Position numbers and translations under genes: made by a program. DNA of 64,000 nt from an uncultured Cohaesibacter sp. (GTDB lineage: Bacteria > Pseudomonadota > Alphaproteobacteria > Rhizobiales > Cohaesibacteraceae). Position 1 is the first letter of the stretch, and the number at the start of each line of letters is the position of its first letter. Location of the stretch: positions 3,903,001-3,967,000 of the forward strand of contig NZ_OY761553.1 in assembly GCF_963664735.1 (NCBI RefSeq), given 5' to 3'. Below are positions 11,593 through 57,237 of the stretch, in pieces. The notes beneath the pieces are model-generated. The model was given only the letters and a program-made list of their open reading frames with translations. It did not search any database and was not told the origin of the DNA.

Positions 11593-12702
11593 ATGTCCTC
11601 TTCCGGACAGCCCCAACGGCCTCAACCGCGTGAAGGGCTTCTCGATATCCCGCTTTATGTTCCCGGCAAGGCCGAGATCGATGGGGCAGCGCCCATTCAC
11701 AAACTCTCTTCCAATGAATCTCCCTTCGGCGCCAGTTCGAAGGCGATGGATGCCTTCCGTCAGATAACCGGCAATCTGGAACTTTATCCCGATGGCGGTA
11801 GCGTTGTTCTGCGCGAGGTGATTGGTGAAGTTCATGGCCTCCACCCAGATCGTATTCTGTGTGGTGCCGGGTCGGACGAGGTGCTTAGCCTTCTAAGCTA
11901 CACATTCCTTGATAAGGGCGACGAAGCGATCTACAGCCAGTATGGCTTCTCGGTTTATCCGATCGCCATCATGGCCGCCGGGGCCAAGCCGGTTGTTGCC
12001 AAGGAACAGAATTTAACGACGGATGTGGATGCCATTCTGGCAGCTGTGACCGACAAGACCAAGATGGTCTTTCTGGCCAACCCGAACAACCCGACCGGCA
12101 CCTATATTCCTTCATCGGAAGTGCGCCGTTTGCATGCAGGCTTGCCGCCGCATGTTGTGCTCGTTCTGGATGCTGCCTATTCGGAATTTGTTTCGCGCAG
12201 CGACTATGAAGCCGGTGTCGAATTGGCTTCCACAAGTGAAAATGTGGTCATGACACGGACCTTCTCGAAGGTTTACGGTCTGGCTTCCTTGCGTCTTGGC
12301 TGGTGCTATGGCCCTCAGGCCATCATCGATGCCATAAACCGCATCCGTCCTCCGTTCAATATTTCCGGTGCAGCTCAGGCTGCCGGTGTTGCCGCTGTTC
12401 GGGATCAGGAGTTTGTTCGCAAAGCCGTCAAGCATAATGAGGAATGGCTGCCAAAGACGACTGCCGCATTGGAAAAACTTGGGCTCACAGTGACGCCGAG
12501 CGTGGGCAACTTCGTTTTGATCCATTTCCCGGATACCCCGGGCAAGGGTGCTTTGGAGGCTGACGCCTATCTGCTGTCTAAGGGGTGCGTGCTGCGTCAG
12601 GTCGGTTCCTACGGCTTGCCGAATGCACTGCGTATGACCATTGGCACTGCTGAAGCATGCGAAGCAGTGATCGGGCATCTGGCGGAATTCCTCAAAGGGT
12701 AG
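11593..12702 (+). CDS. hisC: histidinol-phosphate / aromatic aminotransferase HisC
   Basis: 369-residue class II PLP aminotransferase. The HisC segments KLSSNESPFGAS, LYPDGG and LANPNNPTGTY are present, the PLP lysine sits in TRTFSKVYGLASLRLGW, and RPPFNISGAAQAA follows. It transaminates imidazole-acetol phosphate and, in this operon between chorismate mutase and tyrC, probably also prephenate or aromatic keto acids. The start follows AGGAG. The tyrC start lies 5 bp after its stop. Confidence 0.9.
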   Translation: MSSSGQPQRPQPREGLLDIPLYVPGKAEIDGAAPIHKLSSNESPFGASSKAMDAFRQITGNLELYPDGGSVVLREVIGEVHGLHPDRILCGAGSDEVLSLLSYTFLDKGDEAIYSQYGFSVYPIAIMAAGAKPVVAKEQNLTTDVDAILAAVTDKTKMVFLANPNNPTGTYIPSSEVRRLHAGLPPHVVLVLDAAYSEFVSRSDYEAGVELASTSENVVMTRTFSKVYGLASLRLGWCYGPQAIIDAINRIRPPFNISGAAQAAGVAAVRDQEFVRKAVKHNEEWLPKTTAALEKLGLTVTPSVGNFVLIHFPDTPGKGALEADAYLLSKGCVLRQVGSYGLPNALRMTIGTAEACEAVIGHLAEFLKG

Positions 12703-12707
12703 ATTTG

Positions 12708-13682
12708 ATGACAGAGTTTCTTTTCAAGCGCATGACCCTGATCGGTATCGGTCTTTTGGGGTCCTCCATTTCTTTGGCTGCCCGTCAGAAAGGTCTGGTT
12801 GAGCATATCGCTATCAACACGCGGTCTGCTTCCACCCTTGCTAGAGCGCAAGAACTGGGCTTGGGAGACAGTTATCACACGGATATGGCAGAAAGCGTCA
12901 AGGACGCCGACTTTGTGGTGGTTTGTACTCCGGTTGGCGTTTGTGAGACGGTTGCCAAGGTGATTGCCCCGCATCTCAAGGACGGGGCGATCGTCACCGA
13001 CGTTGGTTCGGTCAAGATGTCAATCATTCGCCAGATGCAGCCGCATCTGCCGGACTATGTGCATTTTGTGCCGGGCCATCCTATCGCTGGTACCGAAGAA
13101 TCCGGCCCGGATGCCGGCTTTGCTGAGCTGTTTATCAATCGCTGGTGCATTTTGACGCCTCCTGAAGGTACAGACGAAGCCGCCATCGAGAAGGTCAAGA
13201 CTTTCTGGTCAACGGTTGGCTCCAACGTTGAACTGATGGATGCGCATCATCACGACAATGTGCTTGCCATTACGTCTCACCTGCCGCACCTGATTGCCTA
13301 TAACATCGTGGGTACGGCATCTGATCTGGAAATGGTGACCAATTCCGAAGTGATCAAATATTCTGCTGGTGGTTTTCGTGACTTCACCCGTATTGCGGCA
13401 TCGGATCCGACCATGTGGCGGGATGTTTTCCTGCACAATAAGGAAGCCGCGCTGGAAATGCTCGGGCGCTTCACCGAAGATCTGACGGCGCTGCAAAGGG
13501 CCATTCGCTGGGGAGACGGGGATGCTCTGTTCGACCTTTTCTCGCGCACCCGTTCCATTCGTCGCAGCATTATCGATGCCGGGCAGGAAATTGCTGCCTC
13601 TGACTTTGGCCGTCATCTCAAAGAGGGCGAAACACATGCTCCGGCTCTTAGCAACGACGATCACGAGTTTACGGGCAGTTAA
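12708..13682 (+). CDS. tyrC: prephenate/arogenate (cyclohexadienyl) dehydrogenase
   Basis: 324-residue TyrA-family NAD(P)-dependent dehydrogenase making tyrosine precursors. The Rossmann motif GIGLLGSSISLAAR is at the N-terminus; the catalytic segment VPGHPIAGTEESGPDAG and the later ITSHLPHLIAYNIV are family hallmarks. No ACT or chorismate mutase domain is fused, as expected for the TyrC type. The ATG at 12708 follows AAAGGG and lies 5 bp past hisC, so the three genes form one operon. The longer frame from 12657 overlaps hisC and is rejected. Confidence 0.92.
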   Translation: MTEFLFKRMTLIGIGLLGSSISLAARQKGLVEHIAINTRSASTLARAQELGLGDSYHTDMAESVKDADFVVVCTPVGVCETVAKVIAPHLKDGAIVTDVGSVKMSIIRQMQPHLPDYVHFVPGHPIAGTEESGPDAGFAELFINRWCILTPPEGTDEAAIEKVKTFWSTVGSNVELMDAHHHDNVLAITSHLPHLIAYNIVGTASDLEMVTNSEVIKYSAGGFRDFTRIAASDPTMWRDVFLHNKEAALEMLGRFTEDLTALQRAIRWGDGDALFDLFSRTRSIRRSIIDAGQEIAASDFGRHLKEGETHAPALSNDDHEFTGS

Positions 13683-13729
13683 TCGGCCTTGCCTGCCGTC
13701 TTTCTCGGTAGGCACCCGAAATGGCAGAA

Positions 13730-14848
13730 TTAGCGTATTGAAGGCAGGGTTCCCAAAGGCAGGAACCCTGCCTTTATTGCGCCATTGGTTAGTGTGATCT
13801 TGACCTCTGAGCCGACCATCTCCCCGTCTCGCACAGGTTTGCCCATGAGCTGAAGCCCGGTCAGGGGGCCATTGAAGCCATCCCGTTTTGCCGACAGGGT
13901 CTGCTTGATATGGGCATTTTCAACGCTGGGGTTCAGAATGCGCAACTTCAGTGTGCCATTGGCCCGACCGGCCTGATTGAAGGCGATATTGCCTTTCAGC
14001 TTCAGAGTTTTCTGACCAATTTCCAGACGCCCGTCGATATCCCTGATCTTGCCTGACTGCTGCAACCAAAGCTTGGTCGGGTTCTTGCGGTCATGCAGCA
14101 AGGCATCAAGGCCTTCTTCGGCGGTGAATTTCATTTCGCCGTTCAGAATTGGCAATTGTTCGATGGAAAGCTCAACAGCCTTCAGTGAAAATTGCAGATC
14201 GCCCGCTCTTTCTTGCAAGGGGCTCGCCTGTAGCTCGATGCTGTCCGCCTTGATGGTGCCATGAGGGTAGCCGATCATTGTGTTATTGGCTGACAGGGTT
14301 GCATCCTGCGCAGCAAAGGAAATGGCGCGAATACCATTGGGTGGCAAGAGGGAAACGGCGCTGGTGATCAAGCTGCCTGTAATGTCAAAGCTCTGGCCAA
14401 AATCTGGCTGTTCGATATGCATGGGGGCATGGGTTTTAAGGCTGGCCTGATTGGGCTCATGGATCTGCCAATAGACTTGCAGCGGGCCGCCCGTCACTTG
14501 CCATCCCGATGCCGGGTCGATGGCGGCATAAGAGCTGCAGTCCATGGCCAGTTTAAGCGGATAGCCGCCCAGAGACTGGTTTTGGCAGGAGAGAACACGC
14601 TGGCCGTTGACTTCTCTTGCAACGATCCGGTCAACCAGTGACTGGGTGACTTTGTAGCCGTAATACCAAAAAGCCGACCATCCTGCGATGAGCAGAATGA
14701 GGACGATGGCAAGGCCCCACAGAATGCGACTGGCCCCGCTTTTATGCTTCGGCTCTTCTTGGCGCTCTAGTGTCTCAAAGGGCATCGGGCACTCGTTCTG
14801 TTGCAAATGTCGTTCGGTGTTGGTATTTGAGTTCTCTTGTCGCGCCAT
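13730..14848 (-). CDS. DUF2125 domain-containing membrane-anchored protein
   Basis: 372 residues: a cytoplasmic N-terminus of ~45 residues, one transmembrane helix (SRILWGLAIVLILLIAGWSAFWYY) and a long periplasmic domain that fits DUF2125. That domain contains Cys pairs such as LSCQNQSLGGYPLKLAMDC, probably a disulphide. Function is unknown; AsmA-like beta-rich folds are plausible by pattern only. The ATG at 14848 is preferred over the TTG at 14860. It faces tyrC head-on with 47 bp between the stop codons and diverges from the ChaC gene, a conserved neighbourhood. Confidence 0.8.
   Translation of the reverse strand: MARQENSNTNTERHLQQNECPMPFETLERQEEPKHKSGASRILWGLAIVLILLIAGWSAFWYYGYKVTQSLVDRIVAREVNGQRVLSCQNQSLGGYPLKLAMDCSSYAAIDPASGWQVTGGPLQVYWQIHEPNQASLKTHAPMHIEQPDFGQSFDITGSLITSAVSLLPPNGIRAISFAAQDATLSANNTMIGYPHGTIKADSIELQASPLQERAGDLQFSLKAVELSIEQLPILNGEMKFTAEEGLDALLHDRKNPTKLWLQQSGKIRDIDGRLEIGQKTLKLKGNIAFNQAGRANGTLKLRILNPSVENAHIKQTLSAKRDGFNGPLTGLQLMGKPVRDGEMVGSEVKITLTNGAIKAGFLPLGTLPSIR
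13741..13775. terminator. hairpin at the tyrC / DUF2125 convergent junction
   Basis: Arms AAGGCAGGGTTCC (13741-13753) and GGAACCCTGCCTT (13762-13774) pair perfectly around an 8-base loop. The hairpin lies inside the last codons of the DUF2125 gene and 58 bp past the tyrC stop. The following T tract is short (TTTATT), so terminator function for tyrC is likely but not certain. Confidence 0.55.
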
Positions 14849-14921
14849 CTTATGGCGCAATCATGGCGGTTGTGATAATCGAGCTGAAATTTCTATTGAG
14901 ACGATATCGGGAGGGTAGTGA

Positions 14922-15467
14922 ATGCAGGATTTTTGGGTCTTTGGCTATGGATCATTAATGTGGCGACCCGGCTTCGATTTCAAGGAATCCTACATTGGCA
15001 ATCTTGAGGGATATCACCGTCAGCTCTGCGTTTATTCTCATGTGTATCGGGGGACGCCTGAAAATCCGGGATTGGTCATGGGGCTGAGCAAAGGTGGCTC
15101 GTGTCAGGGAATGCTTTTCCGTGTTGGGGGTGAAAAGCGCGGAGAGGTGATTGACTATCTGCGTGCACGCGAACAGGTGACCTCTGTTTATCTGGAAGAA
15201 TATGTGCCGGTGCGTATTGCTGACAAGAGAGAGCATGAGGATGGCTCGGTATATGAGGCCATTACCTATGTCGCCGACACCGAGCATGAACAATATGCAG
15301 GTAAATTGTCGCTTGAAGAGCAAGTCAGAATTGTAAGGCAAAGCCATGGGGAGGCTGGTCCCAATATTGACTATGTTCTGAACACCGTTGATCACCTCAA
15401 GAGTATTCATATCGAGGATGATGCGCTTTATGCGCTGGCAGCTGCTTTGCGAGATGGAAAGGAATAG
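14922..15467 (+). CDS. gamma-glutamylcyclotransferase (ChaC family)
   Basis: 181-residue ChaC-like enzyme, expected to cleave glutathione to 5-oxoproline and Cys-Gly in the cytosol. The signature FGYGSLMWRP is at the N-terminus (YGSL binding loop), followed by YHRQLCVYSHVYRGTPENPGL. The probable catalytic Glu is in the YLRAREQVTSVYLEEYVP region. GGGAGG precedes the ATG. The family length is about 180, so the gene is complete. Confidence 0.9.
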   Translation: MQDFWVFGYGSLMWRPGFDFKESYIGNLEGYHRQLCVYSHVYRGTPENPGLVMGLSKGGSCQGMLFRVGGEKRGEVIDYLRAREQVTSVYLEEYVPVRIADKREHEDGSVYEAITYVADTEHEQYAGKLSLEEQVRIVRQSHGEAGPNIDYVLNTVDHLKSIHIEDDALYALAAALRDGKE

Positions 15468-15525
15468 CTGCGGCTTCTGTATAGCGCCGCATGCAGCATG
15501 CAGCATTTAGCATCTTTGGAAAGGC

Positions 15526-15888
15526 TCATGCACAAAGATAGCAGAGTTCCTTGCCGGTAGCCCGTGTCAGATCCCTGACGACCTGTTGGCGTTCATGTTT
15601 GCTTCCGGCCAAAAGATGGACGTAGACGGACAGGCTGTCGACTTTCTCGGGGGCAATTTTGCAGAAAGATTTTGGCGACAGATCCGAAATTTCGCCAATC
15701 CAATGCAGTTCCGGATGCTTCTTATCTTCGTTCTCTGATGCGAGGAGAAGAACGCAATTTTCGAAGCTGGAGATATCATCCAGGGAAATCTGCGAGAAAA
15801 TGTAGCGGTTGCCATTCTCGCTTTGCCAGTAGCAAAAGCGATTGCGCAGGCTATCAACAATCAGATCCCCATTTGCTCCGAACGACAT
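15526..15888 (-). CDS. small unknown protein under a LexA box
   Basis: 120-residue soluble protein from ATG 15888 (MSFGANGDLIVDSL), which has GGGGATTGAG in front; a frame open to TTG 15954 would run through the LexA box and is rejected. No family recognised with confidence. The layout (RYIFSQIS, then NCVLLLAS, ELHWIGEISDLS, VYVHLLAG, HERQQVVRDL) resembles by eye a degenerate GIY-YIG-like fold in which catalytic residues are missing; this is only pattern inference. It stands alone between chaC and plsC, and its operator suggests DNA-damage induction. Confidence 0.68.
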   Translation of the reverse strand: MSFGANGDLIVDSLRNRFCYWQSENGNRYIFSQISLDDISSFENCVLLLASENEDKKHPELHWIGEISDLSPKSFCKIAPEKVDSLSVYVHLLAGSKHERQQVVRDLTRATGKELCYLCA

Positions 15889-15920
15889 ACTCAATCCCCA
15901 CAGATTGTACTCATCTACGA

Positions 15921-15935
15921 GAACAAATATAGAAC
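15921..15935. promoter_or_regulatory. LexA (SOS) box, alphaproteobacterial type
   Basis: GAACAAATATAGAAC is an exact GAAC-N7-GAAC direct repeat, the LexA recognition sequence established for Alphaproteobacteria. It lies 33-47 bp upstream of the ATG at 15888, in an AT-rich promoter region, so it fits repression of the small unknown gene. Confidence 0.75.
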
Positions 15936-16010
15936 ATTTTTCCCTGAAATGCAACTTGTTCTCTAGCTACATTATGTAGTTCGATTCTCTGAAAATACAA
16001 TATTTAGATT

Positions 16011-47031: not shown

Positions 47032-47919
47032 TCAGCTCAAGGCTGGTTGCTGCTGCAGCTTCTGCCAAATCCGGACGACATCGTCGGCGCTTGGGGTTTG
47101 TGTTTCCACCACCGAGAGGGATTGTGTTTGAGCGCAGGTAACCCCTTTGTCATATCGAATGCGTCCCAGAACCGTTGCGTTTTGGGATGTTGCCAAGGCT
47201 TCAATTTCTTCAGTCATCGCAGGGGAGATATCCCATTTGTTGACGCAGACATGGGCCGGAATGCGAAAATGCCTGGTAAGCTCCAGAACTCTTTGCAAGT
47301 CATGGGCGCCGGAAAGTGTCGGCTCGGTTATCACCACCACGGCGCTTGCGCCGGAGATGGAAGCAATGACGGGGCAGCCCGTACCGGGAGGGCCATCGAC
47401 AAGAATGAGATCCTTATTGTTCTCCTTGGCCAATCGGGTAGCGTTTTCCCTGACGGTGGAAACCAGTTTCCCCGAATTTTCAGCGGCTATGCCGAGCTTG
47501 GCATGCACCATCGGCCCTGCGCGGGTGGATGAAACCATCCATTCACCGCACGTTCGGTCTTCGAAAGCAACTGCTTTAAGCGGACAAAAAGCCACGCAAA
47601 CGCCGCAGCCTTCACAGGAATGCGGGTCGACTTCAAACAGGCTTTTGGCATCTTCTTGCGGGATTTCCTTGATGGCGTCAAAGCGGCACAGGTTGAGGCA
47701 TGCGCCGCAGGAATTGCAAATGTCCTGAAGGACCCGTGCTTCGTGACCGCTGACGAACGCGTGTCTTTCTTCAATTGCGGGCTGAAGAATTAGATGGAGA
47801 TCTGCGGCGTCGACATCACAGTCTGCGAGAACCGGGCTGTCTGCCAGAATGGCAAAGCTAGCCAATAGGCTGGTTTTGCCTGTGCCTCCCTTGCCACTGA
47901 TAATGACAATTTCTTTCAT
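47032..47919 (-). CDS. MinD-type P-loop ATPase with two [4Fe-4S] clusters (1)
   Basis: 295 residues. A deviant Walker A (SGKGGTGKTSLL) is at the N-terminus and DGPPGTGCPVI forms the Walker B/switch region. Inserted at ~residues 64-115 is a bacterial ferredoxin domain with ICNSCGACLNLCRFDA and HSCEGCGVCVAFCPL. Such ATPases pair with a NifX-like protein in many anaerobes, with a possible role in metal-sulfur cofactor transfer. It overlaps ATPase 2 by 4 bp (ATGA), showing a coupled operon. Function is inferred. Confidence 0.85.
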   Translation of the reverse strand: MKEIVIISGKGGTGKTSLLASFAILADSPVLADCDVDAADLHLILQPAIEERHAFVSGHEARVLQDICNSCGACLNLCRFDAIKEIPQEDAKSLFEVDPHSCEGCGVCVAFCPLKAVAFEDRTCGEWMVSSTRAGPMVHAKLGIAAENSGKLVSTVRENATRLAKENNKDLILVDGPPGTGCPVIASISGASAVVVITEPTLSGAHDLQRVLELTRHFRIPAHVCVNKWDISPAMTEEIEALATSQNATVLGRIRYDKGVTCAQTQSLSVVETQTPSADDVVRIWQKLQQQPALS

Positions 47920-48761
47920 GTTGCATATTCTTTTATCTGGTTGAGCAGGGCTCCGAACAAGGCTTTATAATCTGGAAGCGCTTTTATGATGGGAATGCCA
48001 TTGGCGTAGCTTTCTGCTATGCGCCGGTCATCGGGTATTTCGGCCAGAATGTCGATGCCTTCTTGGGCGCAATATCTATTGATGCAGTCATAGTGTTTTT
48101 CTGCCCGGTTGATGACGACGCCAAAGGGCACGCCGAGGGCTCTGGTCATGTCAACCGCGAGCTTGAGGTCATTGAGGCCAAACGGGGTTGGTTCTGTGGT
48201 CAGAACAGCGAAGTCACACCCCTTCATGGCCGCAACGGCTGGGCAGGCGGTTCCGGGGGGCGAATCCAGTATCGCAAGGGCCGCATCGTCAATTCCCTCC
48301 TTTGCCCGGTCTATGATGGTGCTGGACAGAGACATGCCGATGTCCATCTTTCCTTCGATGAGCAAAATGTGGTCGAGCCTTGATTGTCTGATCGTGCCAA
48401 TGGGATAGGAGACTTCGCGAATGGCCTTTTGCTTGCATGCTCTTTTGCATCCTCCGCAGCCATGGCACATATCGGCCATGACCATCGGGAAGCTTCCCAG
48501 ACAGGCAATCGCGCCGAATTCGCAAAACTCAGAGCATAAATCGCAGCCATCGGCGGCTGTGCAGCGGTCTTCCATGATTTCCGGGATAAGAATGGACACT
48601 TCTGATGTTTGCTCATCTGTTCCCTTGAGGAAGAGATGGACATTTGGTTCTTCCACATCACAGTCAAGCAGCTGAACAGGTTGCTCTGCCGCTAATGCCA
48701 GATTGACGGATACTGTCGTTTTGCCCGTGCCGCCTTTGCCAGATGCAACTGCAATCCTCAT
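47916..48761 (-). CDS. MinD-type P-loop ATPase with two [4Fe-4S] clusters (2)
   Basis: 281-residue paralogue of the neighbouring ATPase. Walker A is ASGKGGTGKTTVSV and the DSPPGTACPAVAAMKG region matches. The ferredoxin insert has an irregular first cluster (DRCTAADGCDLCSEFCEFGA) and a canonical second one (CHGCGGCKRACKQKA). The ATG at 48761 gives the MRIAVASGKGG start; the longer frame to 48881 is a shadow over the NifX gene. Probably forms a heterodimer with ATPase 1. Confidence 0.85.
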   Translation of the reverse strand: MRIAVASGKGGTGKTTVSVNLALAAEQPVQLLDCDVEEPNVHLFLKGTDEQTSEVSILIPEIMEDRCTAADGCDLCSEFCEFGAIACLGSFPMVMADMCHGCGGCKRACKQKAIREVSYPIGTIRQSRLDHILLIEGKMDIGMSLSSTIIDRAKEGIDDAALAILDSPPGTACPAVAAMKGCDFAVLTTEPTPFGLNDLKLAVDMTRALGVPFGVVINRAEKHYDCINRYCAQEGIDILAEIPDDRRIAESYANGIPIIKALPDYKALFGALLNQIKEYAT

Positions 48762-48762
48762 G

Positions 48763-49092
48763 TCACAGCTCGATGAGGGCGTTGGAATGGCAAAGGTCGA
48801 TCGCTTCGCTGACAAGGACATCTTTGGCGGACAGGATCTTGATGCCTGACCGTTTGAGGGCGTGGAGAGCCTTTGGGCCACAATCGCCCGTTATCACACA
48901 TTGCGCTTTCCTTTTGACGATGGTTTCCGCCGCCTTGATGCCAGCGCCGCCGGTTGCCTCTCGCATGGTATTTTCTATCAGCTCGAAAGTGTTGGTTTCT
49001 GTATCAAAAATGAGAAAGTATGGTGTACGGCCAAATTTGGGTTCAACGGGTGCGGAAAGGTCGTTTCCTGTTGTGCTGATTGCGATTTTCAT
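48763..49092 (-). CDS. NifX/NafY-type dinitrogenase Fe-Mo cofactor family protein
   Basis: 109 residues spanning exactly a NifX/NafY-like FeMo-cofactor-binding domain (FGRTPYFLIFD; GAGIKAAETIV; CVITGDCGPKALHAL). The Cys in GDCGPKA is a plausible ligand. Stand-alone versions occur beside MinD-type ATPases in non-nitrogen-fixing anaerobes. First gene of this three-gene operon, with 1 bp to the next start. There are no nif structural genes here, so the bound cofactor is unknown. Confidence 0.85.
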   Translation of the reverse strand: MKIAISTTGNDLSAPVEPKFGRTPYFLIFDTETNTFELIENTMREATGGAGIKAAETIVKRKAQCVITGDCGPKALHALKRSGIKILSAKDVLVSEAIDLCHSNALIEL

Positions 49093-49310
49093 CGATTTTC
49101 CTTGTATCGAGGGTTATGTTGTAACAATTTTTGATATAGCTAAGATATATTTTGAAATATTTCAATTGGATTCGGCGTTACGGATTGTCGCAGGCTTGGC
49201 GCCAACATCGTGCCGAGAAATCGGCATCATCGAAATGTCATGTATGGGAGGCATTATCACGGTATTTCACGGGGCGTTTTCTGCACCCAGATTTCCATAA
49301 AGAGTTTCAA

Positions 49311-50237
49311 ATGCCGTTTTGTTTTTTGCCACGAGACTTGAGGGTAGCCTTCTATGCTGCTTTTGCCGTCGCAGCGCTGCTTGTCTCATCGCTTTCCCAT
49401 GCCGCATCGTCAGCGGTATCCTCTCGATTTGCATTGGGTGAGCCCACTATCGTGATAACGCACAGGGGAAACGGGTTCGGGTTTCCTGAGAATTCTCTGG
49501 CCGGGGTCGAGGCTGCAATTAAGGCCGGCGTCGAAGTTATCGAGGTAGATGTGCGTGTCAGCGCAGATCGCACGCATTTCATCATGCATGACGCAACGCT
49601 TAGCCGTACCACAGATGTTGATCAGGTATATCCCGATGGCCCGCCTCCGGCTCCCGGTTTTGAAGGCTTTGCCATGGAAGAAAGCGCCGTGAGCTATTTC
49701 AAAGCTGAAGAATTGGAGCGGCTTTCGCTCAAGAGTGCTGATGGCAAGCGCTATCCCGTTCCGACTTTGGAAGAGATTTTGGCTGCCGCCAAGGGCAAGG
49801 CCATTGTTGATCTTGATATCAAGACATTTGATCCTGATGGACTGAAGCAAATCGTCGATGAATTTGGTCAGGAAAATCTGATTGTGCGCAATCCCAACTT
49901 ATCCAAATTGCAGCAGATCTATGCTGCAACAGGCGCGTCTCCTCTTTGTTCGCTGGATTCTGCCAAGGATAAGATTGCACGCTTACACCAGATTAAGGAC
50001 ACCTTTGGAGAGGATGCGAGAGCCGTTGAGGTGGACTACAGCTCCATTACGCCGGACTTGATCAAAGAGGCTCGATCTCTGGGCATAAGGCTCTGGGTGA
50101 ACGGGCATGAATTGCCCGATATAAAAATGGGCCAACATGACGATACATTGTGGCGGAAAGTGATTTCGAGCGGGGCGACGGCCTATTTGTCCAATTATCC
50201 GGTGGAGATCAAGAAGCTGTTGGATGAAAGACAATGA
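49311..50237 (+). CDS. glycerophosphodiester phosphodiesterase
   Basis: 308 residues. A Sec signal peptide (VAFYAAFAVAALLVSSLSHAASS) is followed by a GDPD TIM barrel. Catalytic HRG in ITHRGNGFGFPENSL, the metal ligands EVDVRVS and MHDATL are present. It hydrolyses glycerophosphodiesters to glycerol-3-phosphate in the periplasm. ATG 49311 begins the signal peptide; the upstream frame from 49152 is rejected. It diverges from the NifX-like gene, so is not part of the redox operon. Confidence 0.9.
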   Translation: MPFCFLPRDLRVAFYAAFAVAALLVSSLSHAASSAVSSRFALGEPTIVITHRGNGFGFPENSLAGVEAAIKAGVEVIEVDVRVSADRTHFIMHDATLSRTTDVDQVYPDGPPPAPGFEGFAMEESAVSYFKAEELERLSLKSADGKRYPVPTLEEILAAAKGKAIVDLDIKTFDPDGLKQIVDEFGQENLIVRNPNLSKLQQIYAATGASPLCSLDSAKDKIARLHQIKDTFGEDARAVEVDYSSITPDLIKEARSLGIRLWVNGHELPDIKMGQHDDTLWRKVISSGATAYLSNYPVEIKKLLDERQ

Positions 50238-50306
50238 AAGAGAGCTTCAGCCAAACTGGCCAAGGCTCTTGAGTCCGAGGGTCAGAAAACCAGCATTCGG
50301 TTCGGT

Positions 50307-52166
50307 TTAATAGAGCACTGAGCTCATGGACAGATTGTCCCAAATCTCCTTGACCGTATGCTGAAGCTCGCGACGGCGATCTTCATAGTGGGTGTGAAGC
50401 AGATGATGGGCTTTTTCCGAATTGGGGGCTTCAAGGAAGTCCCTGTAAAGAGCCTGTACCTGCTCGTTCTTGTGTGACTGACGCACGTTGGTCTTGCGGT
50501 CTACATTGTAGATCGTTTCGCGCCGGGCCATGGCCAGAGGCAGATAGGCCTTCTTGGAGCGAAGCGAGCCGCCGCCATCGACGCAGCCGCCCGGGCAGGC
50601 CATGACTTCGATGAAGTCATAATCTGCTTCTCCGGATCGCACCATCTCGACCAGCTTGCGGGTGTCGCCAAGGCCATGCACCATGGCCACCTTAACTGTG
50701 CCGATCGGTCCTCCCAGATCGACGGTTGCTTCTCGCACGCCTTCAAAGCCGCGCAGCTGGGTCAATTCAACCTTGTCCAGCTCCTTGCCATTCACCACCG
50801 CGTAAATGGTGCGGACCGCTGCTTCCATGACGCCACCAGTGGTGCCGAAGATGGCCGCTGCACCGGAATATTCGCTCATGTAAGGATTATCAAAGCTTGA
50901 GGGCTTGATGGTTTTGAGGTCGATGCCCTCGCGGCGCAGAAGTCGGGCAAATTCCCGTGTGGTCAGCACCACGTCTGTATCCTGCCTACCAGCTTCTCCC
51001 AACTGTGGGCGAGCTGCTTCGTCCTTTTTGGCGATGCAGGGCATGATGGAAATAACGCGGATCTTGTCGGCTGCAATATTCTGCTTTTCCGGCAGGTAGG
51101 TCTTGGCGATGGTCGAAAGCACCTGCTGGGGAGATTTGGTCGAGGACAAGAGCGGCAGGATGTCCGGATAATGGGTTTCTGCGAAATTGATCCAGGCCGG
51201 ACAGCAGGAGGTGAAGGTCGGCTTGCGGCCTTCCTTCAGGCGCCCAAGAAGTTCGGTGCCTTCTTCCATGATGACTACGTCGGCTGCAAAATTGGTGTCG
51301 AGCACGATGTCTACACCGATCTTGCGGCAGGCTGCGATAACGTGGCCCTCGACGTTGGTTCCGGCTGGCATGCCAAATTCCTCGCCGAAGGCGACGCGTA
51401 CCGCTGGTGCAAACTGGACGACGGTGGTGATCTCCGGATCGCAAATATAGTCAAGCGCCTTGTCGATTTCATCTCGCTCGCCCAGTGCACCTGTTGGACA
51501 GACCAGAACGCACTGTCCGCACGAGACGCAGATATTGCTCATTGGGTCACTGCCATCTCGCAGGGCAACGACGCGGTTGTTGCCGGTTCCTTCCATGACG
51601 AGGGCATCAATGCCCTGATGATAGCGGCAAATGGCGACGCATCGTTGGCAGCGAATGCAGCGGCGCATGTCGCGGATCATCGCTGTGGAGGCTTCATCCA
51701 CCGGACGGCTTTCTGCCAAGGTTCTGTCAAAGAAACGGTTTTCCGTGAGGCCGACATATTGGGCTACATCTTGCAATTCGCAGTCGCCATGGCGGATGCA
51801 GGTAGCGCAGTCCTGCAGATGATCGGCCATTAAAAGCTCGACCTGAAGCCGTTGCATGTCGCGGGCTTTCTTGGAGCGGGTTTGAACCGTCATGCCCTCG
51901 CGTACTGGCGTGTTGCAAGAGGTCACGATCTGGGCGCCGTTGTGGCCTGAATGTGTGATCTCCACCAGACAAACGCGGCATGTGCCAGGCGTGTGGTCAA
52001 TGTCATCCAGCTCGCACAGGGTCGGGATGTAGATATCATGGCGTCGGGCGCAGGACAGAATCGTTTCGTTGGCAAACGCCATGCATTGCTTGTTGTTGAT
52101 CAGTAGCTTGATGGTTGCCTCGGCAGGATCGCGTCCGGCATAGCTGATAGGCTCAGTGGTGCACAT
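50307..52166 (-). CDS. hydA: [FeFe]-hydrogenase catalytic subunit (HydA / HndD-like)
   Basis: 619 residues. Order: [2Fe-2S] domain (Cys39-Cys84 region with TCRVC), NuoG-type His-ligated [4Fe-4S] (HLQDCATCIRHGDC, 116-129), two [4Fe-4S] ferredoxin motifs (CIRCQRCVAIC 170-180; CVSCGQCVLVC 213-223), then the H-cluster domain. H-cluster motifs are TSCCPAW (319-325), MPCIAKKDE (375-383) and EVMACPGGC (520-528), giving ligands Cys321, 377, 524 and 528 plus the proton-relay Cys320. A Fe_hyd_SSU C-terminal tail follows. Cytoplasmic. It lies 3 bp behind the diaphorase gene. Confidence 0.93.
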   Translation of the reverse strand: MCTTEPISYAGRDPAEATIKLLINNKQCMAFANETILSCARRHDIYIPTLCELDDIDHTPGTCRVCLVEITHSGHNGAQIVTSCNTPVREGMTVQTRSKKARDMQRLQVELLMADHLQDCATCIRHGDCELQDVAQYVGLTENRFFDRTLAESRPVDEASTAMIRDMRRCIRCQRCVAICRYHQGIDALVMEGTGNNRVVALRDGSDPMSNICVSCGQCVLVCPTGALGERDEIDKALDYICDPEITTVVQFAPAVRVAFGEEFGMPAGTNVEGHVIAACRKIGVDIVLDTNFAADVVIMEEGTELLGRLKEGRKPTFTSCCPAWINFAETHYPDILPLLSSTKSPQQVLSTIAKTYLPEKQNIAADKIRVISIMPCIAKKDEAARPQLGEAGRQDTDVVLTTREFARLLRREGIDLKTIKPSSFDNPYMSEYSGAAAIFGTTGGVMEAAVRTIYAVVNGKELDKVELTQLRGFEGVREATVDLGGPIGTVKVAMVHGLGDTRKLVEMVRSGEADYDFIEVMACPGGCVDGGGSLRSKKAYLPLAMARRETIYNVDRKTNVRQSHKNEQVQALYRDFLEAPNSEKAHHLLHTHYEDRRRELQHTVKEIWDNLSMSSVLY

Positions 52167-52169
52167 GGC

Positions 52170-54167
52170 TCAGGCCGCTCCTTCGGGGATGGAATGCTTG
52201 GTGATCACAGAATAGAGGCGATAGCAGCGCATGCAGCGTTGGGCCTCATTGTAGGCGTCTTCCAGACTGATCGTCTGTTCCACCTCCCCGAACATCTTTT
52301 TACGCAACTCCGGATCAAGTGCAGGGTTGTGCACGCGATAGCCGTTGCGCACCGGAGTTTCAACGGCGTCGTTGGCCAGAAAGGCGTTGTCGTTGATCAG
52401 TTCGCGCATGCGGGAGCGTTTGAAGAAACGCGGGGTGCCAAACTGGATCCAGTCGTCGATACTGCGCGCAGCCTTAAGCCCTGCGGACATGGCATAAATG
52501 AGCGTTGAAGGGCCGGTAACACAGTCTCCTCCGGCGAAAACGCCGGGCCGCGAGGTGGTCAACGACTTGTCAGCTTCCACGCATTTCCATTTGTTGAAGT
52601 CTATGCCTTCCTCGGCGATGATTTCCTGGCTTTCCACTTGTTGGCCAATAGCGGCGATGACCGTGGAGCAAGGCATGATATGCTCTGTGCCGGGAATGGC
52701 GCGTACATTGCGGCGACCAGATTCATCGGGCTCGGTCTCTTCCATTTCCACAAGCTCGATGCCGGTAATCTTGCCGTCTTCGCTGATAATGCGGGTTGGA
52801 GTGCACAGGGTGTGAAAGTCGATATCTTCTTTTTCTGCCTCTTCCACTTCTTCGGTGTCAGCAGGCATCGCTTCTTTTGTTCGCCGATAGATCAGGTGAG
52901 CGTTGCTCGCGCCGAGCCGCACGGCGGAGCGGACGCAGTCCATGGCGACATTGCCGCCGCCGACAACAACCACATCGCCCTTCAGCTGGAAGGTGTCGAT
53001 GCCGTCAACATGGTCATGCACCTTGAGCAGAAAATCGATGCCGGTGAAATAGCCTTCGCGGACCTGTTCTTCATCCTTGAGGCCAAGCATGGAACCTTCC
53101 TGACAACCAAGGCCCAAGAATATTGCTTTGTAGCCACGCTGGAATAACTCGTCGATGGTGAAATCGGTTCCCAGTTGCTGGCCAAACATGAAGCGACCGC
53201 CAAGGTCGACGATAATGTCGGTCTCCATGGCCAGCGTGTCTTTTGGCAGGCGATAATTCGGAATGCCGATTTGAGCCATGCCACCGGCCTTGTCCTGCTT
53301 TTCAAAGACATCGACGTGATAGCCATGAAGCAGCAAGTGATAGGCGCAGGAAATGCCAGCCGGTCCGGCTCCGATGACTGCTACCTTCATGCCATCGGCC
53401 AAAGGCTTCTGGATCATCTCGCGAGTGAATTTGAGGGCATGCGGCCCCTTTTGCTGATCGGCCACGAAGCGCTTGAGCGTTTTGATGCCAACGGCCTCAT
53501 CAACAAATTTGCGTCGACAGGCCTGCTCGCAATAGCGCACGCAAACGCGGCCACAGGTTGCTGCCATAGGGTATTTTTGCAGCAAGACGCCAAGAGAATT
53601 CTCCGGCTTACCATCGCGGATATAATCGATGTAGCGCGGCACGTTGACCTTGGAAGGGCACGCTTCAATGCAGGGGGCTGTCATATAGGCCATGCCGTGC
53701 TGGGCGCGGATGGGCATATGATTTGCCACTTCCTTCTCGATCTGTTCGCGGAAATGATGAATGACCTCCAGAAGGGCGACACAGCAGGTCTGCCCCAAGC
53801 CGCAAAGAGAGGTTTCCTTCATCTGGTCGGCCAGCATCTCGATGTCATCAAAATCGAGCGGTGTGTCTAGGCCCCGGCGCATTTTGTCGAGCGCGTCCCG
53901 TATCAACACCGTTCCCATGCGGCAAGGCGTGCAGGCCCCGCAGGATTGCTCTGCCGCTTTGCTCATATAGTGGAAAAGACCATCGACCAGACTCACGGTT
54001 TCATCAAAAACAAAGAAACCTCTGTCTGCGAAAAAGGCGCGCACGGCGTTGCCTTCATCGAACTCATCAAAATTTCTTAGTGCCGCAAGAGGAGTGTCCT
54101 TGCCCGGCAAATTACGCCTTGCATCATGAACAACTCCATCCCAAACGCCATACACCACTTTTGCCAC
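52170..54167 (-). CDS. NAD(P)H-linked Fe-S flavoprotein (NuoF cluster domain fused to GltD-like module)
   Basis: 665 residues. Residues ~70-125 are the C-terminal cluster domain of NuoF (SCGACTPCRMG, Cys76/79/82 and Cys122). Residues ~160-220 have GltD-type Cys motifs, then an FAD site VIGAGPAGISCAY (264-276) and a nucleotide site VVGGGNVAMDCVRSA (401-415) with RRTKEAMPA, typical of NADPH-using GltD. The FMN-binding part of NuoF is missing; an in-frame stop lies a few codons upstream. Resembles SfrB/HylB. Starts GTG at 54167 after GGGGGTCA. Probable electron donor or acceptor for HydA. Confidence 0.88.
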   Translation of the reverse strand: MAKVVYGVWDGVVHDARRNLPGKDTPLAALRNFDEFDEGNAVRAFFADRGFFVFDETVSLVDGLFHYMSKAAEQSCGACTPCRMGTVLIRDALDKMRRGLDTPLDFDDIEMLADQMKETSLCGLGQTCCVALLEVIHHFREQIEKEVANHMPIRAQHGMAYMTAPCIEACPSKVNVPRYIDYIRDGKPENSLGVLLQKYPMAATCGRVCVRYCEQACRRKFVDEAVGIKTLKRFVADQQKGPHALKFTREMIQKPLADGMKVAVIGAGPAGISCAYHLLLHGYHVDVFEKQDKAGGMAQIGIPNYRLPKDTLAMETDIIVDLGGRFMFGQQLGTDFTIDELFQRGYKAIFLGLGCQEGSMLGLKDEEQVREGYFTGIDFLLKVHDHVDGIDTFQLKGDVVVVGGGNVAMDCVRSAVRLGASNAHLIYRRTKEAMPADTEEVEEAEKEDIDFHTLCTPTRIISEDGKITGIELVEMEETEPDESGRRNVRAIPGTEHIMPCSTVIAAIGQQVESQEIIAEEGIDFNKWKCVEADKSLTTSRPGVFAGGDCVTGPSTLIYAMSAGLKAARSIDDWIQFGTPRFFKRSRMRELINDNAFLANDAVETPVRNGYRVHNPALDPELRKKMFGEVEQTISLEDAYNEAQRCMRCYRLYSVITKHSIPEGAA

Positions 54168-54716
54168 AGTGACCCCCGTCGCGTAGAATAATCAACGTTA
54201 ACAGGCAAGCTCCGTCGTCAGCATGGAGAAACGATTGCTGATCGTCCCTATTCTGACTTGGAGCTTTCCTCCCAGATCCACCATTGGGACAATTTTTTAT
54301 GTTTGCTGGCATGTTTGATCAGGCTCGCAGAAATGTCTTGCGGTAGGTCAAAGCGCGTTATCGAGACGGGCATGCGATAGCGTGGATGCTTGGTAAATTG
54401 TGGTTCAATGAAGTGTTCGGGGTTTGGATTCCGGACCGTGTTTTCTGAAGAAAATTCTTGAATATTAGGAAGTTAAAGGGAGGGTTTAGAGCTCTTCTGT
54501 TTGTTGTCTGCAGTCCTCTTCGAAAGGAAGATACCGTGAAAAATGAAGGGCGGCAGATTGCCACATACTTTTGTCTGATTGATTTGAGAACTCATACAAT
54601 ATGGGCCTTTGGGCTCAGTTTTGAGAAAATAAATTTGGAACGAGGTTCTTATCTGCCCAATTTAGTGTTCTGTTAGAGGAATAGCGTCGCATTGGTGCAA
54701 TTGGGGAGGATTGTCA
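54168..54716. other. divergent promoter region, hydrogenase operon / ABC importer
   Basis: 549 bp without a supported gene; a 68-codon frame at 54358-54564 on the minus strand has no family. The DNA is AT-rich near 54460-54620. I looked for a symmetrical FNR-type anaerobox and did not find one. Confidence 0.4.
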
Positions 54717-55733
54717 TTGCAGGAGCTGATATTTCAAGGAATTGACCGTCGTTCTCTTCTGAAGTGGACTACCGCAGTCGGGGCAGCTGCATTGCTGCCT
54801 GTCGGCTTGGGTGGGCGGGTAAGGGCTGCCACGGATCCTCTTACGCTATGGGGTATTCCGGCTTCTCCCTCTGCTGTTTTTGCCCGGGCAGTGGCCTCTG
54901 GTGCGCTGGAAAAGGTCGCTCCGGGAGCGAGGTTTGCTGTCTGGAAAAGCACAGATCAGATGCGCGCCGGAATAGCGTCCGGCGATTTCCAGATTTTTGC
55001 CACTTCAACCTATGCCGCCGCCAATTTCTTCAATCGGGGGGCAGGGACAGTGATGCTCAATGTTGTGACCTGGGGTGTGCTCTATGTGATGGCGCGTGAT
55101 AAGGGCATCAGCAGCATCGAGGATCTGGCTGGCAAGCATGTGTTGTTGTCTAACAAGAGCGAAGCGCCTGATCTGTTGTTTCGGCTGGTCCTGAAATGGT
55201 CGGGGCTGGACCCGGATAAGGATGTGGCACTGGATTATGTCGGCTCGCCGGGGGAAGCCGTGCCACTTTATCTCGCGGGACGTGGTGATGTGGCTTTGTT
55301 GCATGAGCCTGCGTCAACTGCGGCTCTGTTCAGGGCGAAAAAGGCCGGTATTCCGCTTTATCGTGCGATTGATATTACCGAGGTCTATGGTGTTCACACC
55401 GGGCGAGGGCCGCGCATTCCACAGGTCGGCTTGGCGGTCAATCCCGACTATCTCGAGAAGAGGCCCGAGGTGGTTGAAGCTGTTCATCAAGCCTGTGTTG
55501 ATGCTGGGGCGTGGATCAAGGCCAATTGGGATGAAGCAGGTCAGTTGGCGGCAAACAGCCTGCCTTTGCCAGCGCCGGTTATTGCCAAGTCCTTGCCCTT
55601 CGTGCATCTGGATGTAAAAACCGCCAAAGAGGCGCAAGAGGATATCGAGCTTTATTTCGATCACCTGATGAGCCTTGATCCGGGTATCGTGGGCGGCAAA
55701 AGACCTCCTGCGGATTTTTATTGGGGTGCGTGA
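54717..55733 (+). CDS. Tat-exported ABC transporter substrate-binding protein
   Basis: 338 residues. The N-terminus carries a twin-arginine signal (GIDRRSLLKWTTAVGAAALLP). The mature part is an SsuA/NMT1-like type II binding protein (IASGDFQIFATSTYAAANFF, SIEDLAGKHVLLSNKS, LLHEPASTA). It would capture a small organic, sulfonate-like or unknown ligand. Start at TTG 54717 sits 7 bases after GGAGG; the TTG at 54711 is too close. Tat export suggests folding before export. Forms an operon with the next two genes. Confidence 0.82.
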   Translation: MQELIFQGIDRRSLLKWTTAVGAAALLPVGLGGRVRAATDPLTLWGIPASPSAVFARAVASGALEKVAPGARFAVWKSTDQMRAGIASGDFQIFATSTYAAANFFNRGAGTVMLNVVTWGVLYVMARDKGISSIEDLAGKHVLLSNKSEAPDLLFRLVLKWSGLDPDKDVALDYVGSPGEAVPLYLAGRGDVALLHEPASTAALFRAKKAGIPLYRAIDITEVYGVHTGRGPRIPQVGLAVNPDYLEKRPEVVEAVHQACVDAGAWIKANWDEAGQLAANSLPLPAPVIAKSLPFVHLDVKTAKEAQEDIELYFDHLMSLDPGIVGGKRPPADFYWGA

Positions 55734-56528
55734 GTGTTCAACTTTCGCGGACAGGGAAAAAGTTTCGTGCTGCGCATCTTTTTGTTTGTCACTGGTGTCG
55801 GATTTCTCTTGGGCTTGTGGCAATTGGGGCACCATATCTACGGATCGCTCGTTTTGCCCGGCGTTGGAGAAACCTTTGTGACGCTCGGACAGATGATCCG
55901 CTCCGGTGAGGTGTCTGATGCGATCATGGCCACCGCCTTTAACGCGCTGGTGGGTTGGTGCTTCAGCGTGGCAATCGGCGTGTTGGCTGGCGGCTTGGCT
56001 GGCCGGTTCAGCGAAGTTCGGTTCTTGTTGCAGCCGGTTTCCATAATCCTTCTGGGTATTCCCGCAATTGCATGGGTGGTCCTGGCGCTCTTATGGTTCG
56101 GTGGGCGATGGGCGGTTGTCTTCACTGTCGCGGTGGCGACCGCTCCCATGATATTTGCCGCTGCGGTGCAAGCGGTGCGCAGTCTTGATGGTGATCTGGC
56201 CAAAATGGCGCGCGCCTTCAAAGCGCCTGCCATCACTATGGTGACCGATGTTTATGTGCCTCACATGCTGGCCTATCTCTATCCGGCTTTGGCCACCACG
56301 CTGGCCATGTCGTGGAAGGTGTCCATTATGGCTGAATTGCTGTCCGGTTCGGGTGGTATTGGAGACGGTATCGCTGCGGCGCGAGCTCGGGTTGATACTG
56401 CGCAGGTGCTGGCTTGGGTCGTTGTGGTCGTGATCATTCTAGTGGTGCTCGATCAGCTCTTGCTGCGCCTTGTGCAAAAGCGCATGCATGTCTGGCGACG
56501 GCAGGCTGAGGGGGGACGGGATGGCTGA
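55734..56528 (+). CDS. ABC transporter permease (SsuC/TauC type)
   Basis: 264-residue BPD_transp_1 inner-membrane permease with about six helices. The cytoplasmic EAA loop (DLAKMARAFKAPAITMVTDVYVPHMLAYL) and SGSGGIGDGIAAARA match the SsuC/TauC group. It starts at GTG directly after the binding-protein stop (TGAGTG), indicating coupling. Confidence 0.87.
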   Translation: MFNFRGQGKSFVLRIFLFVTGVGFLLGLWQLGHHIYGSLVLPGVGETFVTLGQMIRSGEVSDAIMATAFNALVGWCFSVAIGVLAGGLAGRFSEVRFLLQPVSIILLGIPAIAWVVLALLWFGGRWAVVFTVAVATAPMIFAAAVQAVRSLDGDLAKMARAFKAPAITMVTDVYVPHMLAYLYPALATTLAMSWKVSIMAELLSGSGGIGDGIAAARARVDTAQVLAWVVVVVIILVVLDQLLLRLVQKRMHVWRRQAEGGRDG

Positions 56529-57237
56529 CCTGATACTTGCTCTTTCTGATGTTGTATTTTCCTACGGCCAGCAATCGGTGCTTTCCGGCGTTGACCTATC
56601 TGTGAACCGGCAAAGCGTTGTGGCGCTCATGGGGCCTTCAGGATGCGGCAAGACGACCTTGCTCTCCCTGATTTTAGGCTTGCAAGCGCCATCTTCCGGG
56701 CTTCTGGAATGTTCTGCTGGCAGGGTTTCTGCGATGTTTCAGGATCCGCTTCTGCTGCCATGGCGCAATGTTCTGGACAATGTTTCTTTTGCCCTCAAAG
56801 CGTTCGCTTTAGCAAGAGAGGAAAGGGAGGATAAGGCCAGAAGAATGCTGGAGGCTGTCGGGCTCCCTGCGGATAGTCACCAGAAGTTCCCCCATGAGCT
56901 TTCCGGCGGAATGCGGCAGCGGGTTTCGCTGGCGCGGGCTCTTGTGGTGGAGCCAGATCTGCTGCTTCTCGATGAGCCGTTTCATGCACTCGATTTTGCT
57001 CTTGTCAAGCAAATGCAGATCTTGTTGCGTAGCCGAACTGATGACTGTGGCATGGCAATTCTCATGGTCTCCCATGATGCGCGGCATGCTGCGGAGATGG
57101 CTAATGAAATCGTGTTTCTATCCAGTCCGCCAACGCGGGTTATAGACCGCATGACCAACAGTCATCGCGGAGACCGGCATAAGGAATTGCTGCTCTCTAC
57201 AGAAATAGAAACCCGCCTCGACCATGTTGCTCTTTAA
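56521..57237 (+). CDS. ABC transporter ATP-binding protein (SsuB/TauB type)
   Basis: 238 residues. Walker A GPSGCGKTTLLSLI, Q-loop FQDPLLLPWRN, signature LSGGMRQRVSLARAL and Walker B LLLLDEPFHALD place it in the nitrate/sulfonate/taurine import ATPase group. The ATG at 56521 (MADLILALS) overlaps the permease stop by 8 bp. Substrate not determinable. Confidence 0.9.
   Translation: MADLILALSDVVFSYGQQSVLSGVDLSVNRQSVVALMGPSGCGKTTLLSLILGLQAPSSGLLECSAGRVSAMFQDPLLLPWRNVLDNVSFALKAFALAREEREDKARRMLEAVGLPADSHQKFPHELSGGMRQRVSLARALVVEPDLLLLDEPFHALDFALVKQMQILLRSRTDDCGMAILMVSHDARHAAEMANEIVFLSSPPTRVIDRMTNSHRGDRHKELLLSTEIETRLDHVAL

Follow-up and report, generated by a model that had tools for sequence, protein, structure and literature searches.

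The H-cluster of [FeFe]-hydrogenases is held to be built by the maturases HydE, HydF and HydG (together HydEFG). Can such an enzyme be provided with the [2Fe] unit of its cluster in a lineage where none of the three is found? The question is raised by a gene pair, hydA and a gene named dia here, of an uncultured Cohaesibacter sp.; the pair lies in a window (the whole stretch of DNA analysed, 64,000 nucleotides, coordinates counted from its first letter) that spans positions 3,903,001-3,967,000 of a genome consisting of one contig of 4,942,407 bp. Here, I show that its HydA belongs to a clade whose 23 searched genomes, from Cohaesibacter, Rhodovulum, Tropicimonas, Rhodobium, Aliiruegeria and one metagenome-assembled genome (MAG), all failed to yield HydE, HydF or HydG, and in which the chosen active-site positions are invariant. 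The explanation favoured, to which I give an even chance, is that the pair encodes a genuine two-subunit, NADP(H)-linked cytoplasmic [FeFe]-hydrogenase whose [2Fe] unit would arrive by a HydEFG-independent route.

The dia-hydA pair

On the minus strand dia (54167-52170, 665 aa, GTG start) is followed after a gap of 3 nt by hydA (52166-50307, 619 aa). Both open reading frames (ORFs) stand where a preliminary description, made from the DNA letters alone, had placed them, and the pair is conserved: dia is immediately upstream of hydA in all 34 loci compared, two of which (L095 and L103) are cut by a contig end. Across 28 pairs drawn from eight of the nine Cohaesibacter loci of the window's type, the median dN/dS is 0.043 for HydA (median dS 0.97) and 0.033 for Dia (median dS 0.84); both proteins are under strong purifying selection, and the 12 other HydA copies of the genus are full-length frames with no stops. 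Given the adjacency in every locus and the low dN/dS, dia and hydA are neither chance nor decaying ORFs.

By Pfam and NCBIfam models, motifs and ligands, HydA is an M3-type group A [FeFe]-hydrogenase subunit. It matches PF02906 (300.6 bits), Fe_hyd_SSU, Fer2_4, NADH-G_4Fe-4S_3 and Fer4, in a layout of 2Fe-2S, His-4Fe4S, two 4Fe-4S, H-domain and SSU domain. The group A membership raised earlier is borne out at the level of a sequence model, since its 521.9 bits clear the TIGR02512 cut-off of 405.95; the group A6 model NF040763 is narrowly missed (721 bits against 765). All three loops L1-L3 are intact, in agreement with the view that HydA is not Narf-like, since the loss of these motifs is what marks Nar1/NARF-like and HylA-like proteins. 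As to the H-cluster ligands, the preliminary description was right about C377, C524 and C528 and one residue too low in the first loop: TSCCP reads T319 S320 C321 C322 P323, so that the cysteine pair is C321/C322 and residue 320, taken for the proton-relay cysteine, is a serine.

Dia is a diaphorase-like partner composed of a NuoF-type 4Fe-4S module (PF10589, residues 66-145) and a GltD/NfnL-type FAD/NAD(P)H module, the latter recognised by GltD Fer4_20 (PF14691, 154-240) plus Pyr_redox_2 (260-563) and by relatives in the PDB, namely NfnL, dihydropyrimidine dehydrogenase (DPD), GltD and related large oxidoreductases. No FMN-domain family is present among its 15 domain matches, as had been proposed for a single 665-residue partner of this make-up. 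The pattern NVAMD...YRR, which may be linked to NADPH, occurs in Dia and throughout A2. NfnL and the small subunit of glutamate synthase share the GltD-like module; Dia differs from them in its additional NuoF 4Fe-4S module and in having HydA as a partner.

Among the closest known systems is the NADH-linked, bifurcating HydABC type (group A6, M3), whose HydA1 has the same domain order and cluster ligands; the best PDB sequence matches of HydA are the HydA1 structures 8a6t (1.4e-150) and 7q4v (5.5e-149). Unlike HydABC, the locus combines a HydA below the NF040763 cut-off with a GltD-like partner that has only the NuoF 4Fe-4S module, and HydEFG were not found. Among the nine ORFs scanned at 47032-57237 (pair included; farther ORFs were read by eye) there is no separate NuoE/NuoF-like protein, which agrees with the earlier claim that a separate FMN-containing NuoF partner is lacking, and neither an FMN-binding HydB nor a NuoE-like HydC is seen among the seven scanned besides the pair. 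The proposed distinction from HydABC stands in this respect, but the two-gene arrangement is also met with elsewhere. A similar pair is encoded by Collinsella aerofaciens, an adjacent NAD(P)-binding NuoF-4Fe4S/GltD-type protein and group A HydA (identities to the window proteins 36% for Dia and 42% for HydA), with an L3 ending in GGGQP; its locus also carries, after the pair, a relative (28%) of the substrate-binding protein (SBP) encoded beside dia (see below), the ending GGKLPxxDFY being common to both.

Searches for the maturases

In the own genome the best matches score far below the model cut-offs: 28.7 bits for HydG (cut-off 312.15), 41.5 for HydE (254.6) and 77.2 for HydF (325.55), the last confined to the GTPase portion of the model. 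No HydG or HydF over cut-off was obtained in any of the 16 Cohaesibacter genomes searched, which include all 13 with HydA (best HydF match in the genus 80.8 bits against 325.55, the matches again covering the GTPase part only), and the 12 other HydA-bearing ones gave no HydE match at E 1e-30. Ten further genomes of the HydA clade (five Rhodovulum, two Tropicimonas, Rhodobium orientis, Aliiruegeria lutimaris and the MAG G447) returned no match to HydG (E 1e-30), HydE (1e-30) or HydF (1e-35). The clade comprises 24 HydAs, of which one, L104, was left out and 23 are represented by a searched genome. The same models applied to eight sister genomes recovered HydF in 8/8, HydE in 8/8 (seven over cut-off) and HydG in 6/8, so the searches work. 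The preliminary description had called HydA prototypical, had asked for a search for HydEFG and had named their absence as evidence to the contrary; with none over cut-off in the own genome or found in the 22 other searched clade genomes, that label is not sustained.

Two sets of candidates for a hidden maturation system were considered and set aside. The best HydE and HydG matches of the own genome fall in one and the same 425-aa ORF, which is CofH, an F420 synthesis enzyme (487.2 bits against a cut-off of 374.1), and on this ground such radical-SAM matches were rejected as disguised maturases. This ORF and two others read by eye as CofG and CofD (L003, 1087-2364, 2369-3757 and 122-1090; near 1.345 Mb of the genome) make up a group of F420 synthesis genes. 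The window also encodes, at 47032-49092 on the minus strand, a NifX-like protein together with two ATPases of the Mrp/NBP35 type that bear 4Fe-4S motifs; as alternative assembly factors these were rejected, none being found near the pair in the 12 other loci of the genus, within the 20-kb (in one case 16-kb) stretches round the pair to which the comparison was confined.

A clade nested among maturase-bearing relatives

HydA is uncommon in the class, as had been stated: 22 of 385 sampled alphaproteobacterial genomes have it, 19 over cut-off. Within Cohaesibacter it is present in 13 of 18 genomes, the own included (one of the five without it is only 64% complete). A scan of contigs yielded 24 HydA relatives at 65-97% identity; because a relative had to contain either of two 8-residue peptides to be detected, the maturase-less clade may be larger than its 24 members.

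In a maximum-likelihood tree of 56 HydAs the 24 maturase-less proteins form one clade (100/100), nested in a clade of 34 (100/100, stem 1.49) with eight proteins from maturase-bearing genomes and two from doubtful MAGs. The sister HydAs, of Roseiarcus, Rhizomicrobium and MAGs, are 65-69% identical and belong to the same dia-hydA pair; their genomes differ in carrying HydE and HydF (8/8, one HydE below cut-off) and HydG (6/8). Seven of the eight sister loci have hydE and hydF in the same stretch as hydA, and the eighth, L103, starts 1.5 kb before hydA. The midpoint root serves for drawing only and the clade of 34 opens with an unresolved three-way fork; therefore a "loss" of maturases rests on outgroup parsimony. 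The Cohaesibacter HydAs are not one branch, being intermixed with those of Aliiruegeria, Rhodobium and a MAG, which suggests that the dia-hydA pair has moved between lineages. The doubtful pair, Verrucomicrobium G451 and Eisenbacteria G452, have HydAs of 69-70% identity and no HydE or HydF match (a HydG match of 175.6 bits in G451 is below cut-off); they were assigned to neither group and may be misbinned.

The third loop, L3, follows this division. The ending GGGSLR singled out in the preliminary description is real: it reads CVDGGGSLRSK in 24/24 HydAs of the maturase-less clade, CVDGGG[TN]LRSKK in 8/8 of the sister group, and GGGQP is found in 17 of the 22 HydAs outside the clade of 34. At nine positions the 24 HydAs and the eight sisters are each fixed for a different residue: 21, 28 (Cys), 44, 117, 198, 237, 351 (Ser), 397 and 534 (Ser).

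Other hydrogenase genes were encountered in the same material. A second HydA is present in five of the eight sister loci. In L098 of Rhizomicrobium electricum it scores as A6; there, in the cluster that has dia-hydA and hydE/hydF, a NuoE-like gene (by eye) and a NuoF-like gene precede the A6-type HydA (774.7 bits, over cut-off; 12315-15979). In MAG G447 the maturase-less dia-hydA pair is followed immediately by genes for a NuoE-NuoF fusion and a HoxU-like protein (L091, 12337-15074). Cohaesibacter G001 has a second, distant HydA-like protein (L054, from 9175 on the plus strand, a 626-aa frame, ~24% identity). Finally, six HydAs come from alphaproteobacterial genomes with no HydE, HydF or HydG match: L072 (G149), L073 (G243), and L060, L063, L064 and L065 (G226, G098, G150 and G261). 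The last four form a clade of their own (100/99) among HydAs from small genomes that have maturases, and so appear to represent another maturase-less lineage of independent origin, although G226 is only 80% complete.

Conservation of the [2Fe] pocket

A set of 28 H-cluster, [2Fe]-pocket and proton-path sites was chosen in HydA, namely the L1-L3 cysteines, Lys380, Met375, Met522, Phe440, Glu301/302/305, Ser341, the motif glycines and others. The roles assumed for them are those of the CpI residues, Lys380 being CN-binding, and C321, K380, M375, M522, E302, E305 and S341 being expected to matter only for the [2Fe] unit and proton transfer. All 28 are invariant in 24/24 maturase-less HydAs, whereas of the remaining H-domain positions 141 of 257 are; when 28 positions of the H-domain were drawn at random, 16.6 on average were invariant, and none of 10,000 such draws reached 28. 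As the sites were picked as family motifs, the result measures the strength of conservation and is not an unbiased test. All 16 listed N-terminal Fe-S ligands are likewise invariant in the 24 proteins. The preservation of the pocket matters because the relatives of HydA that dispense with the H-cluster (HylA, Nar-like) are described, in a passage of PMC6085437, as having no L1-L3 motifs.

A linked transporter and a promoter box

Divergent from dia, three genes on the plus strand encode an ABC transporter: an SsuA/NMT1-like SBP with a Tat-signal hit (54711..55733), which matches SsuA-type models below cut-off only, a SaoP/SsuC-like permease (55734..56528) and a taurine/nitrate-type ATPase (56470..57237), the last two also below cut-offs. 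SBP and permease adjoin the pair in 21 of the 24 maturase-less loci, in 20 of them together with the ATPase. The transporter is divergent upstream of dia in 12 and co-directional downstream of hydA in nine, and the same association in two arrangements argues for a functional link between transporter and hydrogenase. Counted by genome, the SBP is present at 66-100% identity in 20 of 23 maturase-less genomes, in none of the eight maturase-bearing sisters (one has a 38% relative) and in none of five Cohaesibacter genomes with no HydA match (four have relatives of 37-40%). As for its ligand, the PDB sequence matches are confined to E 0.0046 and 0.0078, and the quality of the predicted fold (mean pLDDT 57.4) does not permit a fold search. 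The dia-hydA cluster of a maturase-bearing MAG (L100, 1841-4322) includes another transporter, different but broadly similar in kind: the genes between hydE and hydF encode an SsuC-like permease and a fusion of an ATPase with an SsuA-like SBP.

In an alignment of eight loci of the genus, a block conserved at 184-190 nt before dia fits the consensus of a FixK/FNR-type box; in the window it is TTGA-N6-GCAA at 54338..54351 on the minus strand, 184 nt upstream of the gene. The pattern TTG[AC]N6[TG]CAA, chosen after the alignment had been seen and counted in loci that are related, occurs in 9/9 Cohaesibacter loci of the window's type, 0/4 other Cohaesibacter loci and 5/18 others (14/31 in total), with a background of 0.047 per 450 bp. 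A strict FNR box, TTGATN4ATCAA, was discarded as a candidate, there being no exact match in the window and four one-mismatch matches where 3.38 are expected.

Weighing the explanations

According to the favoured explanation, electrons would pass between NADP(H) and the H-cluster through the FAD of the GltD-like domain, the 4Fe-4S clusters of Dia (the NuoF-type one included) and the four Fe-S clusters of HydA, so that H2 disposal or uptake could balance NADPH, and the pair would probably be expressed at low oxygen via the FixK/FNR-like box. NADPH-driven H2 evolution is uphill at ordinary H2 pressure, which favours H2 uptake, or else evolution where H2 is very low. From the sequence I infer the H-cluster, the H2 chemistry, the NADPH specificity and the low-oxygen control; whether a real H-cluster is present in HydA I rate as about evenly balanced. 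If it is, the [2Fe] unit would have to reach HydA in the absence of HydE, HydF and HydG, because the lineage lost (or never received) the maturases yet kept the whole pocket. That HydEFG are dispensable if the [2Fe] unit arrives is indicated by the apo-HydA1 of Chlamydomonas, which, a passage of PMC6984386 reports, is activated by a synthetic [2Fe]adt complex in living HydEFG-free E. coli or Synechocystis.

Several points weigh on the other side. To my knowledge, no natural HydEFG-independent route to the [2Fe] unit is known, and no obvious alternative maturase is seen among the neighbouring genes. The same passage of PMC6984386 has HydEFG-free E. coli making an inactive apo-HydA, and the M3 enzyme in its screen, a representative of the class to which HydA is similar, stayed inactive under all conditions following artificial maturation. 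In the alphaproteobacterium R. rubrum a HydA is reported and maturases are lacking, and that enzyme is called probably inactive or of different role (a passage of PMC4967309, where it is an ancestral M3 derivative clustering with Nar1; it is likened to the present HydA by description, not by sequence). Lack of HydG is itself not rare, as nine of the 21 other HydA genomes in the alphaproteobacterial sample gave no match at E 1e-30; of these, two carry both HydE and HydF, six gave neither and one was not tested for them. Some of the conserved sites may owe their invariance solely to structure or to [4Fe-4S] binding. As to the transporter, the SBP is missing at E 1e-15 from three of the 23 maturase-less genomes (G008, G012 and G016) and is thus not strictly required, and L089 has no ATPase match directly beside SBP and permease.

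The main rival, a possible though doubtful one, holds that HydA has been repurposed and carries the cubane [4Fe-4S] cluster only, the pair being an NADPH-dependent electron-transfer enzyme or a redox or oxygen sensor. It would account at once for the maturases not found in any searched genome of the clade and for the strong selection, which shows that some function exists, and it is consistent with the nine positions fixed unlike those of the sisters, Cys28, Ser351 and Ser534 among them; a cubane-only apo-HydA is, moreover, the HydEFG-free product of E. coli in PMC6984386. Against it speak the invariance of the residues expected to serve only the [2Fe] unit and proton transfer (C321, K380, M375, M522, E302, E305 and S341), and the relatives in PMC6085437, which in losing the H-cluster lost L1-L3 as well.

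Maturation by enzymes invisible to the profiles, either very diverged HydE, HydF or HydG or moonlighting radical-SAM enzymes of other pathways, is unlikely, and if true would strictly be a form of the favoured explanation. Radical-SAM relatives do exist in the genome, the best HydE and HydG matches sharing one ORF; but that ORF is CofH, the HydF matches of the genus remain limited to the GTPase part, and the same models succeed in the sister genomes. A further reading, which I consider improbable, is a natural H-cluster auxotrophy: an apo-hydrogenase would be matured by a ready-made [2Fe] unit, or a precursor or ligand of it, that maturase-bearing neighbours release and that is imported via the Tat-signal SBP and its ABC transporter. 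The transporter does occupy the place beside dia-hydA where sister lineages carry hydE and hydF; in three Cohaesibacter genomes another entry route would be needed, for the pair is present and the SBP absent. That the pair is a functionless relic, acquired by horizontal transfer not long ago, is very improbable, since a dN/dS of ~0.04 at dS near 1 and 12 stop-free, full-length copies contradict it, even if the patchy occurrence of the pair in the genus and the mixed tree make transfer as such likely.

Implications

In searches of open-licence PMC papers I found no description of the maturase-less clade, its maturase-bearing sisters, the preserved pocket or the linked transporter, and nothing on HydEFG-independent maturation or on a Rhizomicrobium [FeFe]-hydrogenase. 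What is new is this clade, a maturase-less HydA being already on record for R. rubrum. Because a clade with cultured members keeps the whole pocket under selection and has no detectable maturases, the question of an H-cluster assembled or obtained in the absence of HydEFG can be put to a direct test in culturable strains (Cohaesibacter, Rhodovulum, Rhodobium and Tropicimonas). Should the pair prove active on H2, a second route of maturation or acquisition of the [2Fe] unit would exist; if it proves inactive, a HydA would serve some other purpose in spite of its fully preserved pocket, and the annotation of hydrogenases by their motifs would be undercut.

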